Positions 2,485 to 47,237 of a stretch of 64,000 nucleotides of DNA are shown here, in pieces. The stretch lies in contig NZ_KB907452.1 in the NCBI RefSeq assembly GCF_000382045.1, forward strand, positions 188,295 to 252,294. The letters are read 5' to 3'. The stretch's first letter is position 1. Each line of letters opens with the position of its first letter. A model generated the notes under the pieces. The model saw only the letters and a program-made list of their open reading frames with translations, did no database searches and was not told where the DNA came from. Both the position numbers and the translations under genes were made by a program. This stretch comes from Variovorax atrisoli 110B. Its GTDB lineage: Bacteria > Pseudomonadota > Gammaproteobacteria > Burkholderiales > Burkholderiaceae_C.

Positions 2485-3648
2485 ATGAACAACGCCAACG
2501 ACAAGAACTTTCCCGACATCCGCGATGCCGTGCGCGACCTGTGCGCGCAGTTTCCCGACGCCTACTTCCGCAGGATCGACGAGGCGCGCGGCTACCCCGC
2601 CGAATTCGTCGACGCGCTCACCAGGGCCGGCTGGATGGCCGCGCTGATTCCGCAGGAGTACGGCGGCTCGGGCCTGGGTCTGACCGAGGCCTCGGTCATC
2701 ATGGAAGAGATCAACCGCTGCGGCGGCAACTCGGGCGCCTGCCACGGCCAGATGTACAACATGGGCACGCTGCTGCGCCACGGCAGCGAGGCGCAGAAGC
2801 GCGCCTACCTGCCGAAGATCGCCAACGGCGAACTGCGCCTGCAGTCCATGGGCGTGACCGAGCCCACCACCGGCACCGACACGACCAAGATCAAGACGAC
2901 CGCCGTGAGGAAGGGCGACCGCTACGTCATCAATGGCCAGAAGGTGTGGATCTCGCGCATCCAGCACTCCGACCTGATGATCCTGCTGGCGCGCACCACG
3001 CCGCTTTCGGAGGTGAAGAAGAAGTCGGAAGGCATGTCGATCTTCATCGTCGACCTGCGCGAGGCCATCGGCAAGGGGCTGGAAGTGCGGCCCATCCTCA
3101 ACATGGTGAACCACGAGACCAACGAACTGTTCTTCGAGAACCTGGAGATCCCGGCCGAGAACCTCATCGGCGAGGAAGGCCAGGGCTTCAAGTACATCCT
3201 CGACGGGCTCAACGCAGAGCGCACGCTGATCGCGGCCGAGTGCATCGGCGACGGCTACTGGTTCATCGACCGGGTCACGAAGTACACGAAGGAGCGCGTG
3301 GTGTTCGGCAGGCCCATCGGCCAGAACCAGGGCGTGCAGTTCCCCATTGCCGAGTCGTTCATCGAGGTGGAGGCGGCCAACCTCATGCGCTACGAGGCCT
3401 GCCGCCTCTTCGACGCCCACCAGCCCTGCGGTGCGCAGGCCAACATGGCGAAGTACCTTGCGGCCAAGGCGAGCTGGGAGGCGGCCAATGCCTGCCTGCA
3501 GTTCCATGGCGGCTTCGGCTTCGCCTGCGAATACGACATCGAGCGCAAGTTCAGGGAGACGCGGCTGTACCAGGTGGCGCCGATCTCGACCAACCTCATC
3601 CTGAGCTACGTTGCCGAACACATGCTCGGCCTCCCCCGTTCGTTTTGA
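2485..3648 (+). CDS. Acyl-CoA dehydrogenase
   Basis: A 387-residue single-module acyl-CoA dehydrogenase passing electrons from an acyl-CoA to FAD and then to electron-transfer flavoprotein. The N-terminal helical domain contains IPQEYGGSG, the middle beta domain MGVTEPTTGTDT and INGQKVWIS, and the C-terminal domain FGRPIGQNQGVQ and LQFHGGFGFACEYD. The classical C-terminal glutamate position (YEGT) reads YQVAPIS. A glutamate in LNAERTLIAAE sits where isovaleryl-CoA-type dehydrogenases place their base. It is the second gene of the presumed lyase-dehydrogenase-PrpD operon, which suggests a branched or dicarboxylic acyl-CoA substrate rather than a fatty acid. No strong ribosome binding site precedes the ATG, so translational coupling to the lyase is possible. 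Confidence 0.9.
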   Translation: MNNANDKNFPDIRDAVRDLCAQFPDAYFRRIDEARGYPAEFVDALTRAGWMAALIPQEYGGSGLGLTEASVIMEEINRCGGNSGACHGQMYNMGTLLRHGSEAQKRAYLPKIANGELRLQSMGVTEPTTGTDTTKIKTTAVRKGDRYVINGQKVWISRIQHSDLMILLARTTPLSEVKKKSEGMSIFIVDLREAIGKGLEVRPILNMVNHETNELFFENLEIPAENLIGEEGQGFKYILDGLNAERTLIAAECIGDGYWFIDRVTKYTKERVVFGRPIGQNQGVQFPIAESFIEVEAANLMRYEACRLFDAHQPCGAQANMAKYLAAKASWEAANACLQFHGGFGFACEYDIERKFRETRLYQVAPISTNLILSYVAEHMLGLPRSF

Positions 3649-3650
3649 CT

Positions 3651-3710
3651 AACCCCCTTGCTGGGGGCAACGCCTGCGGCCCGGCAAGGCCGGTTCCGCG
3701 GCATTCCACG
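3651..3710 (+). repeat. Dispersed 3'-end repeat, copy 1
   Basis: Short copy of the intergenic repeat also found at 13782-13886, 19561-19664, 20711-20815 and 47092-47159. It begins 3 bases after the acyl-CoA dehydrogenase stop. It keeps two small inverted repeats, CCCCC/GGGGG and CCGGC/GCCGG (loop AAG). The 5' third of the longer copies (the CGCACTTCGTGTCGCT part) is missing here. Confidence 0.75.
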
Positions 3711-3722
3711 AAAGGATCATCC

Positions 3723-13781: not shown

Positions 13782-13886
13782 CACGCCCCATTCCAGGAAC
13801 ACCGCGGAACCGGCTTTGCCGGGCCGCCGGTGTTGCCCCCTGCAAGGGGGTTGGCGAAGCGACACGAGGTGCGCGAAGACTGGGGG
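13782..13886 (-). repeat. Dispersed 3'-end repeat, copy 2 (full length)
   Basis: Full-length copy on the - strand, beginning at the base after the yaaA stop codon. Read in the sense of yaaA it has the conserved CGTGTCGC core, then an inverted repeat CCCCC/GGGGG (loop TTGCA), then CCGGC/GCCGG (loop AAA), then GGTTCCGCGGTGTTCC. It is closely matched by the copies at 19561-19664 and 20711-20815. Confidence 0.85.
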
Positions 13887-14672
13887 TCAGCCCAGCCTTC
13901 TCCTGAACACCAGCCTGTCGGGCCTGGATACGGATGCATCGAAACCATAACCTTCGAGGTCGAACTTTTCCAGTGCCTTGGGCGTGGCCGCCTTGTGCTG
14001 CACGGCCCAGCGCGCCAGCAGGCCGCGGGCGCGCTTGGCGAAGAAGCTCACGATCTTGTACCGGTCGCCCTTCCACTCCTCGAAGACGCACTCGACCACG
14101 CGGGCCTTGAGCACCTTCAGGTCGACCGACTTGAAGTATTCCTGCGACGCCACATTGACCACCACGGGAGTGCGGTCGGCCGCGAGGCGCTCGTTCAGGT
14201 GCTCGGCGATGCGCGGCCCCCAGAAGGCGTAGAGGTCCTTGCCGTGGCGGTTGGCCAGCTGGGTGCCCATCTCCAGGCGGTAGGGCTGCAGCAGGTCGAG
14301 CGGGCGCAGCAGGCCGTAGAGGCCGCTGAGGATGCACACGTGCTCCTGCGCCCAGGCCAGTTGGGCCTTCGTGAGGCTGCGGGCATCGAGGCCGCCGTAG
14401 ACGTCGCCGTCGAAGGCGAAGGCCGCCTGACGGGCGTTCTTCGGCGTGCTCTTGCTGGACCAGGCCTCGTAGCGGGCCACGTTCAGGGCCGAGAGCTTGT
14501 CCGACAGGCTCATGAGCTCGGAGATCTGCTGGGGCGACTTCTCGCGCAGCAGCTTGATGAGCTCGACCGAGGGGCCGCGGGGCGATTCGAAATGGGGCTG
14601 GGTGGCGGGGATTTCGGCGGGGACGGGGGTTTCGTAGTCGAGCGACTTGGCAGGGGAAAGCAGGAACAGCAT
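13887..14672 (-). CDS. yaaA: Peroxide stress protein YaaA
   Basis: A 261-residue YaaA/DUF328 protein. E. coli YaaA limits intracellular free iron under peroxide stress and binds DNA. Family landmarks are the N-terminal LLSPAKSLDYE, the internal SGLYGLLRPLDLLQPYRLEMG (in two adjoining pieces), NVASQEYFKSVD and the late FFAKRARGLLARW. Length and both ends agree with the family. It is divergent from valS across about 120 bases that must contain both promoters. No OxyR-type site is obvious to me in that gap. A repeat copy follows the stop codon immediately. Confidence 0.96.
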   Translation of the reverse strand: MLFLLSPAKSLDYETPVPAEIPATQPHFESPRGPSVELIKLLREKSPQQISELMSLSDKLSALNVARYEAWSSKSTPKNARQAAFAFDGDVYGGLDARSLTKAQLAWAQEHVCILSGLYGLLRPLDLLQPYRLEMGTQLANRHGKDLYAFWGPRIAEHLNERLAADRTPVVVNVASQEYFKSVDLKVLKARVVECVFEEWKGDRYKIVSFFAKRARGLLARWAVQHKAATPKALEKFDLEGYGFDASVSRPDRLVFRRRLG

Positions 14673-19560: not shown

Positions 19561-19664
19561 TGGCCCCTTCCGGGAACACCGCAGAGCCGGCTTTGCCGCG
19601 CTGCAGGTGTTGCCCCCGGAGGGGGTTGGCGAAGCGACACGAAGTTCGCATGGCCTGGGGGCGG
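19561..19664 (-). repeat. Dispersed 3'-end repeat, copy 3
   Basis: Copy on the - strand starting 6 bases after the cysM stop, in the sense of cysM. The first stem keeps CCCC/GGGG but with a shortened loop. The second is CGGC/GCCG with loop AAA. The CGTGTCGC core and the terminal GGTGTTCC-like block are present with some drift (GGTTCCGCGG reads as GGCTCTGCGG). Confidence 0.82.
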
Positions 19665-20615: not shown

Positions 20616-20700
20616 GCCCGGGTGGTGAAATTGGTAGACGCAGGGGACTCAAAATCCCCCGCCGCAAGGCGTGCCGGTTCGATTCCGGCCCCGGGCACCA
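20616..20700 (+). tRNA. tRNA-Leu (anticodon CAA)
   Basis: An 85-base cloverleaf with a 7-bp acceptor stem GCCCGGG/CCCGGGC, a D-arm around TGGTGAAATTGGTAGACGC and an anticodon loop CTCAAAA giving anticodon CAA. It also has a long class II variable arm, the T-arm GGTTCGATTCC, and a genome-encoded CCA end. Class II shape plus anticodon identifies leucine. A CATAAT hexamer 23 bases upstream may be the -10 box. A dispersed repeat copy begins 10 bases downstream. Confidence 0.97.
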
Positions 20701-20710
20701 CAGGTTCTGG

Positions 20711-20815
20711 CTCGCCCCAGTCTTCGCGCACTTCGTGTCGCTACGCCAACCCCTTCCCGGGGGTGACACCGGTGGCCCGGCGAAGCCGGTTCCACGGTGT
20801 CCCTGGAATTGGGCC
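20711..20815 (+). repeat. Dispersed 3'-end repeat, copy 4 (full length, after tRNA-Leu)
   Basis: Full-length + strand copy just past the tRNA 3' end. It holds CGCACTTCGTGTCGCT, a CCCC/GGGG stem with loop changed to TTCCC, then CCGGC/GCCGG with loop GAA, then GGTTCCACGGTGTCCC. Stems are kept while loop bases differ from the copies at 13782 and 19561. Confidence 0.85.
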
Positions 20816-45969: not shown

Positions 45970-47085
45970 ATGGACTTCAATTTCACCGACGACCAGGAAC
46001 AGCTGCGCGACGCGGTCCGCAAGTGGGTCGACAAGGGCTACGACTTCGAGCGCCGCCGCGGCATCGAGGCCAAGGGCGGCTTCTCGCGCGAAGCGTGGGA
46101 CGAACTGGCCGAGCTCGGCCTGGGCGGCCTCTACATCAGCGAGGACGACGGCGGCCTGGGCATGGGTCCGGTCGCGGGCATGGTCGTCATGGAAGAACTG
46201 GGCCGCGGCATCGTGCTGGAGCCCTTCTCGCAGACGCTGATCGCCGGAGCGGTGCTCAGCGGCTACGCGGGCGCCGACACCAAGGAAAGCTGGCTGCCGC
46301 GCATCGCGGGCGGCCAGGCCATCGTGGTGCTGGCCTACCAGGAGCGCAAGGCGCGCTGGCGCCTCGACGTGTGCGAGGCGCACGCCGCCAAGGCTGGCGA
46401 CGGCTGGTCGCTGACCGGCGCCAAGAGCGTGGTGCCCGTGGGCGATGAAGCCGATGCCTTCCTGGTGCCGGCCAAGGTCGACGGCAAGATCGCCCTCTTC
46501 CTGGTCGAGCGCAGCGCCAGCGGCGTGGAAGCGCGCGGCTACGGCACGCAGGACGGCTCCCGCGCCGCCGAGGTCGTGTTCGACAAGGCCGACGCCACGC
46601 TGCTGACGCTCGACGGCCTCGCCGCGCTCGAATACGCGGTGGACGTCGGCATCGCCGCCCTCTGCGCCGAAGGCGTGGGCGTGATGGACAAGACCGTGGA
46701 CCTCACCGTCGAGTACCTGAACCAGCGCAAGCAGTTCGGCGTGGTCATCTCCAGCTTCCAGGCGCTGCGCCACCGCGTGGCCGACATGAAGATGCAGCTG
46801 GAGCTCGCCCGCTCGATGAGCTACTACGCCACGCTCAAGCTCAACGCCCCGGCCGATGAGCGCCGCCAGGCGCTGGCCCGCGCCAAGTACCAGCTCGGCG
46901 TGTCGATGCGCTACATCGCCGCGAATTCGGTGCAGCTGCACGGCGGCATCGGCGTGACCGACGAATACATCGGCAGCCACTACTTCCGCAAGCTCACGCA
47001 GATGGAAATGACCTTCGGCGACACGCTGCACCACCTGGGCGAAGTCTCCGCCCGCATGCAGGACACCGCCGGCGTCTTCGCCTAG
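45970..47085 (+). CDS. Acyl-CoA dehydrogenase, beta-type partner
   Basis: A 371-residue acyl-CoA dehydrogenase homologue. The N-terminal helical domain contains LGLGGLYISEDDGGLGMG and the C-terminal domain QRKQFGVVISSFQALRHRVADM and QLHGGIGVTDEYIGSHYFR. The end motif is MTFGDTLHHL where others have YEGTSEIQ, so the catalytic glutamate is absent. The SEP-type FAD motif in the middle is also missing, replaced by VLAYQERKARW. It is likely a structural partner of the preceding gene in an alpha2-beta2 enzyme. A strong AGGAG ribosome site precedes it. A shortened repeat copy follows its stop. Confidence 0.92.
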   Translation: MDFNFTDDQEQLRDAVRKWVDKGYDFERRRGIEAKGGFSREAWDELAELGLGGLYISEDDGGLGMGPVAGMVVMEELGRGIVLEPFSQTLIAGAVLSGYAGADTKESWLPRIAGGQAIVVLAYQERKARWRLDVCEAHAAKAGDGWSLTGAKSVVPVGDEADAFLVPAKVDGKIALFLVERSASGVEARGYGTQDGSRAAEVVFDKADATLLTLDGLAALEYAVDVGIAALCAEGVGVMDKTVDLTVEYLNQRKQFGVVISSFQALRHRVADMKMQLELARSMSYYATLKLNAPADERRQALARAKYQLGVSMRYIAANSVQLHGGIGVTDEYIGSHYFRKLTQMEMTFGDTLHHLGEVSARMQDTAGVFA

Positions 47086-47091
47086 GACAAG

Positions 47092-47159
47092 GCTCGCCCC
47101 CGGGCTGCGCGCACTTCGTGTCGCTGCGGCCCGGCGAAGCCGGCTCCGCGGTGTTCCGC
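47092..47159 (+). repeat. Dispersed 3'-end repeat, copy 5 (internally deleted)
   Basis: Begins 6 bases after the acyl-CoA dehydrogenase stop. It has CGCACTTCGTGTCGCT joined directly to GCGGCCCGGC, then GAA, GCCGG and CTCCGCGGTGTTCC. The CCCCC/GGGGG hairpin between the two parts is deleted, while the CCGGC/GCCGG stem is kept. Confidence 0.8.
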
Positions 47160-47237
47160 TAGCATCCAACGCCCGCCCGCATCGCGCTGGCGGGCGTTTT
47201 CACTTGGCCCCTCACACCCGGACCCCAGGAACGAAAC

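Follow-up and report, generated by a model that had tools for sequence, protein, structure and literature searches.

The closest described system is the Betaproteobacterial repeat element (BRE). According to the available sections of its report, BRE is about 90 bp long with a GC content of about 69%, occurs in full-length or partial form in Bordetella and Comamonadaceae, and is mostly intergenic, with head-to-tail tandem arrays of variable number (Hot et al. 2011, PMC3110155). Those sections also describe transcription of the bprJ region and give at most 29 copies per genome, which are chromosomal only and some of which lie within coding sequences; members were defined by more than 70% identity to a B. 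pertussis query, and neither a function nor a placement rule is proposed there (PMC3110155). By our own count, none of the 23 loci in Table 3 of that source lies between divergent genes (PMC3110155), which is what a link between the element and gene 3′ ends would predict. BRE locus 3 is BP1793/lexA (PMC3110155), and no copy of the repeat analyzed here was found beside lexA in nine Bordetella-genus genomes, among which classical Bordetella is perhaps absent. The present repeat resembles BRE in length, GC-richness, intergenic location, tandem habit and Bordetella/Comamonadaceae hosts, as compared by description rather than by sequence, and differs from it in having at least 150 copies per genome here, some of them on plasmids. 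Judged by length, GC content, tandem habit and hosts, it is probably BRE or a sister family. No report of the placement rule or of a three-hairpin fold supported by covariation was found in the open-licence literature.

By analogy, the best working model may be the REPs of E. coli that lie within 15 nt of stop codons, the original study of which is said to be that of Liang and Deutscher. In the part of the source available, such REPs are reported to lower translation and to protect mRNA, and about 11% (446/4,072) or about half (260/496) of E. coli REPs are placed that near stops (PMC12306157). The present repeat shares with REP/BIME elements the position of a hairpin repeat directly behind stop codons, whereas E. 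coli REPs are shorter and less often near stops (against 150 of 159 sense arrays here), and no RAYT linkage was seen here. The termini of GTAG-tagged REPs are described, in the portion of the source at hand, as often supplying the stop codon of the neighboring ORF (PMC3733652); unlike these, our repeat has no GTAG/CGTC tag and is not a single short palindrome. ERIC and similar RNA-stability repeats are named in the accessible parts of two sources (PMC3110155, PMC2267715). Like ERIC, the present repeat is dispersed and predicted to form RNA structure. By description, it differs from ERIC-type repeats in sequence, in fold and in its strict 3′-end register.

The window, that is, the whole 64,000-nucleotide stretch analyzed, contains five copies, at 3651, 13782, 19561, 20711 and 47092, as the sequence-only reading had claimed; all were recovered with covariance-model E-values of 4e-29 to 4e-9. 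The copies and the genes upstream of them are as follows.

ends 3648, plus strand: acyl-CoA dehydrogenase-like CDS upstream of the 3651 copy
3651..3716, plus strand: 5′-truncated copy (hairpins 2 and 3 only), after the acyl-CoA dehydrogenase-like gene; 61.2 bits, E 2.2e-14 for 3615-3716
13787..13888, minus strand: full-length copy downstream of yaaA, with its first two bases shared with the yaaA stop; R1 covariance model, 117.8 bits, E 3.6e-29
13859..13874, minus strand: hairpin 1 (GCGCAC / GTGTCGC) of the 13787-13888 copy; alignment A2 columns 19-34
13836..13850, minus strand: hairpin 2 of the same copy, C-run/G-run (CCCCC ... GGGGG); A2 columns 43-57
13798..13834, minus strand: hairpin 3 of the same copy, long, with a CCGGC/GCCGG top; A2 columns 59-95
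13887-14672, minus strand: yaaA, gene call upstream of the 13787-13888 copy (NCBIfam)
19564..19663, minus strand: full-length copy, 7 nt past the cysM stop codon; covariance model, 98.8 bits, E 3.4e-24
ends 19671, minus strand: cysM, upstream of the 19564-19663 copy
20616-20700, plus strand: tRNA-Leu(CAA), upstream of the 20712-20812 copy (ARAGORN)
20712..20812, plus strand: full-length copy, 11 nt past tRNA-Leu(CAA); covariance model, 114.4 bits, E 2.7e-28
ends 47085, plus strand: acyl-CoA dehydrogenase-like CDS upstream of the 47095-47166 copy
47095..47166, plus strand: copy with an internal deletion, without hairpin 2; covariance model, 41.2 bits, E 3.7e-9

A chance origin of the window copies is excluded by these E-values and by the high-scoring matches elsewhere in the genome, which number at least 150. 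All five lie just 3′ of a gene end and in that gene's own sense, behind four CDS and one tRNA-Leu, and their loops (AAG, AAA, AAA, GAA, GAA) read as the earlier analysis gave them. The CCGGC/GCCGG stem that it had assigned to each copy is present overall, with one mismatch in the copy at 19561, in which the first hairpin has two. In the four copies whose 5′ end is intact, model position 1 lies −2, 7, 11 and 9 nt from the stop codon or the end of the tRNA; the 3651 copy starts 2 nt past its stop, is matched by nhmmer from model position 33 and is missing hairpin 1. The 47092 copy, which lost the C-run/G-run hairpin through its internal deletion, sits between the gene end at 47085 and an intrinsic-terminator-like hairpin with a T-run (CGCCCGCC...GGCGGGCGTTTT, 47166-47200) that follows right behind it and is retained in alleles with and without the copy. 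At the gathering score, a scan of the window with Rfam 15 returned tRNA only, and a scan of 12 copy-bearing loci returned no family; at E ≤ 1 there was one chance-level match, far below its cut-off.

The 7.5-Mb genome (G000) holds at least 150 places matching covariance model R1, which was built from 31 copies. We examined 106 regions around matches plus the window, 0.93 Mb in all, which contain 196 covariance-model matches (185 + 11, at two thresholds) and 195 profile matches; since the loci are the surroundings of the best-scoring 150 places, conserved copies are over-represented among them. The 195 copies group into 173 arrays, 18 of which are tandem arrays of 2–4 copies. The full unit in this genome measures about 95–100 nt and consists of three hairpins with a conserved C-run at the 5′ end; across all sets its length is 84–101 nt and its GC content mostly 0.65–0.77, and partial copies occur. 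A closing stem pairing 5′ CCAGG with 3′ CCTGG was considered and rejected, as the 3′ end is too variable. At L067 3501-3998 (G000:C3:340808-341305), four copies follow one another with a regular, VNTR-like period of 132 nt that includes an extra conserved spacer.

The placement of the repeat relative to genes follows a rule with few exceptions. Gene calls outside public records were made with our own codon-based predictor, which places 59 genes in the window at 90% coding. The upstream gene has the same sense as the repeat in 159 of the 173 arrays and the opposite sense in 11, and none was called in 3; of the 159 sense arrays, 150 have their start between −2 and +11 nt relative to the stop codon. 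The sequence-only reading had named random orientation and copies inside genes as observations that would speak against it, and neither pattern was seen: of 170 arrays, 159 share the direction of the upstream gene (160/178 in other genera), and overlaps with called genes do not exceed 20 nt for any of the 195 copies in the own genome; in other genera, 4 of 187 lie inside a called gene. Between tandem gene pairs, sense arrays outnumber antisense arrays 124 to 9 (binomial p 5e-27, with arrays treated as independent). Convergent gaps hold 34 of 158 arrays (21.5%) compared with 132 of 625 copy-free gene 3′ ends (21%), so the register depends on the upstream gene only; in 28 of the 34, the copy is closer to the gene to which it is sense. 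The stop codon precedes or just meets the edge of the element, in all three frames. TGA is rarer among genes with a copy (85/151 versus 448/574 stop codons, in L031-L136 and the window); much of this deficit tracks gap length, with p 0.043 for tandem gaps of at least 60 nt.

The 11 antisense arrays include the copy behind tRNA-Leu, which runs in the direction of the tRNA, leaving ten true exceptions to the sense rule in this genome. Missed ORFs were rejected as their cause, because ORFs ending there score negative for coding or none ends there, and other RNA genes behind exceptional copies were found neither by ARAGORN (26 loci) nor by Rfam (12 loci). Five of the ten (L133 3502 and 6739, L092 3509, L079 3507, L134 4680) lie 5–17 nt ahead of the start codon of the opposite gene, as does an antisense copy of the sister genome G050 (G050:C11 52336), which makes this a second, rarer register. 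An unselected 293-kb contig of G050 carries 11 copies in 10 arrays: 8 lie in sense behind a CDS, between −2 and +9 nt, 1 is a double copy behind the same tRNA-Leu and 1 is antisense. The tRNA-Leu(CAA) copy (window 20616-20812), present once in G000, is thus kept and doubled in G050, in the usual register at a place without a stop codon.

The repeat extends well beyond its host genome. All 61 genomes searched of the host's genus match, and so do 9 of an order-wide sample of 250 genomes at E ≤ 1e-5, the own genome included, with a model fitted to the genus, which will overlook others. Among the matches listed are Bordetella, Achromobacter, Pigmentiphaga, Rubrivivax, Methylibium, Ideonella, Caldimonas, Aquabacterium and Piscinibacter; seven of nine Bordetella-genus genomes match, and copy numbers are 26 in Bordetella sp. 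BOR01, 37 in B. petrii and 145 in Pigmentiphaga. In the other-genera loci, for which 80 of 120 listed stretches were used, 195 of 225 copies are sense to the upstream gene, 21 are antisense, 5 have no called upstream gene and 4 lie in a called gene. Among the 160 sense arrays there (of 178 with an upstream gene), 126 begin within the −2 to +11 nt range of their own profile, and those beyond include later copies of spaced arrays.

The paired positions change together. An excess of paired substitutions, which had been proposed as a check on the structure, was indeed found: 27 cells are changed on both sides compared with 0–4 when partners are slid (alignment A2, own genome), and 71 compared with 3–14 in other families, these counts being inflated by the relatedness of the sequences. 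Five pairs of hairpin 3, which carries most of the covariation, are changed on both sides in A2, and ten pairs contribute the 71 cells of A3 (45 sequences from other families). Hairpin 1 has a different sequence in other families with its pairing kept, e.g., GAAGCGC/GCGCTTC, and hairpin 2 is nearly invariant and so yields little covariation evidence. In A2 and A3, two independent alignments, both the percentage paired and the covariation score exceed those of all 500 shuffles, and the count of additional standard pair types is within the range of the shuffles (reached by 51/500 shuffles in A2 and 190/500 in A3). Paired columns vary less than unpaired ones, with a mean minor fraction of 0.044 versus 0.120. 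The predicted RNA fold of the 13787-13892 copy barely beats shuffles (z −1.09, 30 of 200 shuffles equal), and its opposite strand folds equally well or better (z −1.49). Single-sided changes read on the sense strand of 171 own copies left G-U 75 times versus A-C 43 times (p 0.004, counting sequences rather than independent events), and at unpaired positions C>T and G>A changes are equally frequent (0.0146 and 0.0156); in other families the figures are 41 versus 20, mostly from two column pairs. Because of this asymmetry, the sense strand is favored as the folding strand, as RNA or as single-stranded DNA, in which G-T is also stabler than A-C.

A GC-rich hairpin at gene ends, preceded in the consensus by a C-rich, G-poor stretch and in some convergent pairs nearly filling the gap, would also suit a repeat that is itself a transcription terminator, intrinsic or Rho-linked. 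We consider this unlikely: the profile of 178 copies has no U-run (T-run in DNA) past hairpin 3, copies occur between co-directional genes at the expected frequency, and the 47085 locus has its separate downstream hairpin and T-run, copy or no copy.

The copies also turn over. Of 16 own arrays that could be placed in G050 by their flanks, a comparison that leaves out 7 further arrays on L070-L072 with no counterpart on the contig, 5 are shared, 9 absent and 2 unreadable; conversely, one G050 copy is absent from the own genome. At cysM, 7 of 30 relatives carry the copy (30 of 61 matching genomes). At the 47085 gene, 6 alleles with the copy end in TAG and 24 without it in TGA (30 of 60 matching genomes), which indicates that the stop codon was rebuilt together with the copy. 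Alleles that differ do so over much of the intergenic region, often over the whole gap, and neither an exact insertion site nor a target-site duplication was seen there. Copies are more alike within a genus than between genera, which points to copying or conversion within lineages, as judged from sequence comparison. Given this high turnover between sister genomes, no single copy is indispensable.

Such behavior is what a selfish, non-autonomous mobile element would show if its insertion were targeted, in one orientation, to gene 3′ ends or to the 3′ side of the transcript; its hairpins would then serve its own copying and do nothing for the host gene. The tandem arrays (18/173), the homogenization within genera, the absence of 9 of 14 interpretable arrays from G050, the TAG/TGA split at the 47085 gene and the identical register behind a tRNA all fit this explanation. 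It is countered by the absence of a readable target-site duplication, by the lack of a linked mobilizing gene among Y1 transposases, which are missing from 3 of 10 copy-bearing genomes and have no copy within 1.5 kb at any of 7 loci, and by the G-U/A-C asymmetry, which suggests selection on the sense strand. We regard it as possible, though less probable than a role at mRNA ends.

The reading that we prefer, with a probability of roughly one half, is that of a BRE-like repeat acting in cis, in the manner of REPs, as the structured beginning of the 3′ UTR. Sense placement, stop-codon register, conserved structure, wide phylogenetic spread and copy turnover are all shown by the analysis, and we infer that the element is transcribed and acts on mRNA. 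The steady stop-codon register, sense orientation and conserved pairing point to a repeat that serves, or is tolerated, nowhere but at the start of the 3′ UTR. Each copy would form the opening segment of the untranslated part of the upstream gene, its sense RNA folding into three hairpins behind the conserved C-run. This stable barrier right behind the terminating ribosome may hold off 3′ exonucleases, may alter ribosome termination and recycling at the upstream gene, or both. Against this cis-acting role stands the observation that a lone copy folds no better than shuffles, and its antisense equally well. An action confined to translation termination fits poorly with the tRNA-Leu copy, which keeps the usual register where no stop codon precedes it; together with the rebuilt stop codons, this copy keeps targeted insertion a serious rival. 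The sequence-only reading had proposed a transcribed 3′ structure rather than mobile debris. Placement and paired changes support its first half well, a sense, structured 3′ element, whereas its second half is not supported as worded, since tandem arrays, genus-level homogenization and presence/absence between sister genomes mark the family as a dispersing repeat as well.

A more specific version, which we consider improbable, makes the element an RNA device in cis, sensed by the ribosome that terminates just upstream. The C-run behind the stop codon and the C-run in hairpin 2 would compete for one G-run: a ribosome on the stop would cover the first C-run, so that hairpin 2 forms, and without a ribosome an alternative helix around hairpin 1 could form. 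New copies would then survive only at stops. If true, such a device would account for the register of −2 to +11 nt as well as for the near-invariance of a C-run that is otherwise unpaired. The forced alternative C-run/G-run pairing is possible but costly, at about 6 kcal/mol (median); no covariation supporting the alternative helix was found, and there is no ribosome at the tRNA-Leu copy.

Bacterial dispersed repeats are usually taken as intergenic debris or markers. The family described here, which probably numbers hundreds of copies per genome, obeys a near-exceptionless rule (same direction as the gene, no more than about a dozen bases from the stop) that spans several Burkholderiales families with the fold kept while the sequence changes. 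This makes it testable whether repeats are placed by a copying mechanism or kept for acting on mRNA ends. A cis-acting role would also supply BRE with the function that its 2011 description lacked, and the covariance model is ready for 3′ UTR annotation in a large group of environmental bacteria.

Copies also occur on plasmids: matching plasmid records come from Variovorax (5 of 8), Comamonas and Diaphorobacter. In publicly annotated plasmid loci, 6 of 7 copies are sense and directly downstream of a CDS (ten records, three without a gene table). On a Methylibium plasmid, a degenerate copy lies within an annotated transposase CDS, on the other strand; the Pfam match of this CDS covers only residues 12-61.

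Membership in the REP/BIME class was rejected, as there is no single palindrome of 20–40 nt with a GTAG or CGTC tag and no linked RAYT. A REP element mobilized by a RAYT (Y1) transposase is accordingly very improbable: small palindromic repeats near gene ends and BIME-like tail-to-tail pairs in Pigmentiphaga would be in keeping with it, and yet the unit has about 95 nt and three hairpins instead of 20–40 nt, and a Y1 gene occurs in only 7 of 10 copy-bearing genomes, none of these 7 genes being flanked by copies.

The tail-to-tail pairs (plus then minus) are a BIME-like composite unit. Their copies are 41–108 nt apart, at exactly 86 nt in 5 of 12 cases, and no head-to-head pair was seen. Ten of these loci are from Pigmentiphaga (L201, L209, L221, L234, L236, L237, L260, L267, L268 and L271) and two, L248 and L258, from Alcaligenaceae SAGV5. 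Genome G253 (L175, L176 and L196) has a divergent form with the C-run, hairpin 1 and the C-run/G-run hairpin but a different long hairpin, and the 5′ half of the repeat may thus be its older core.
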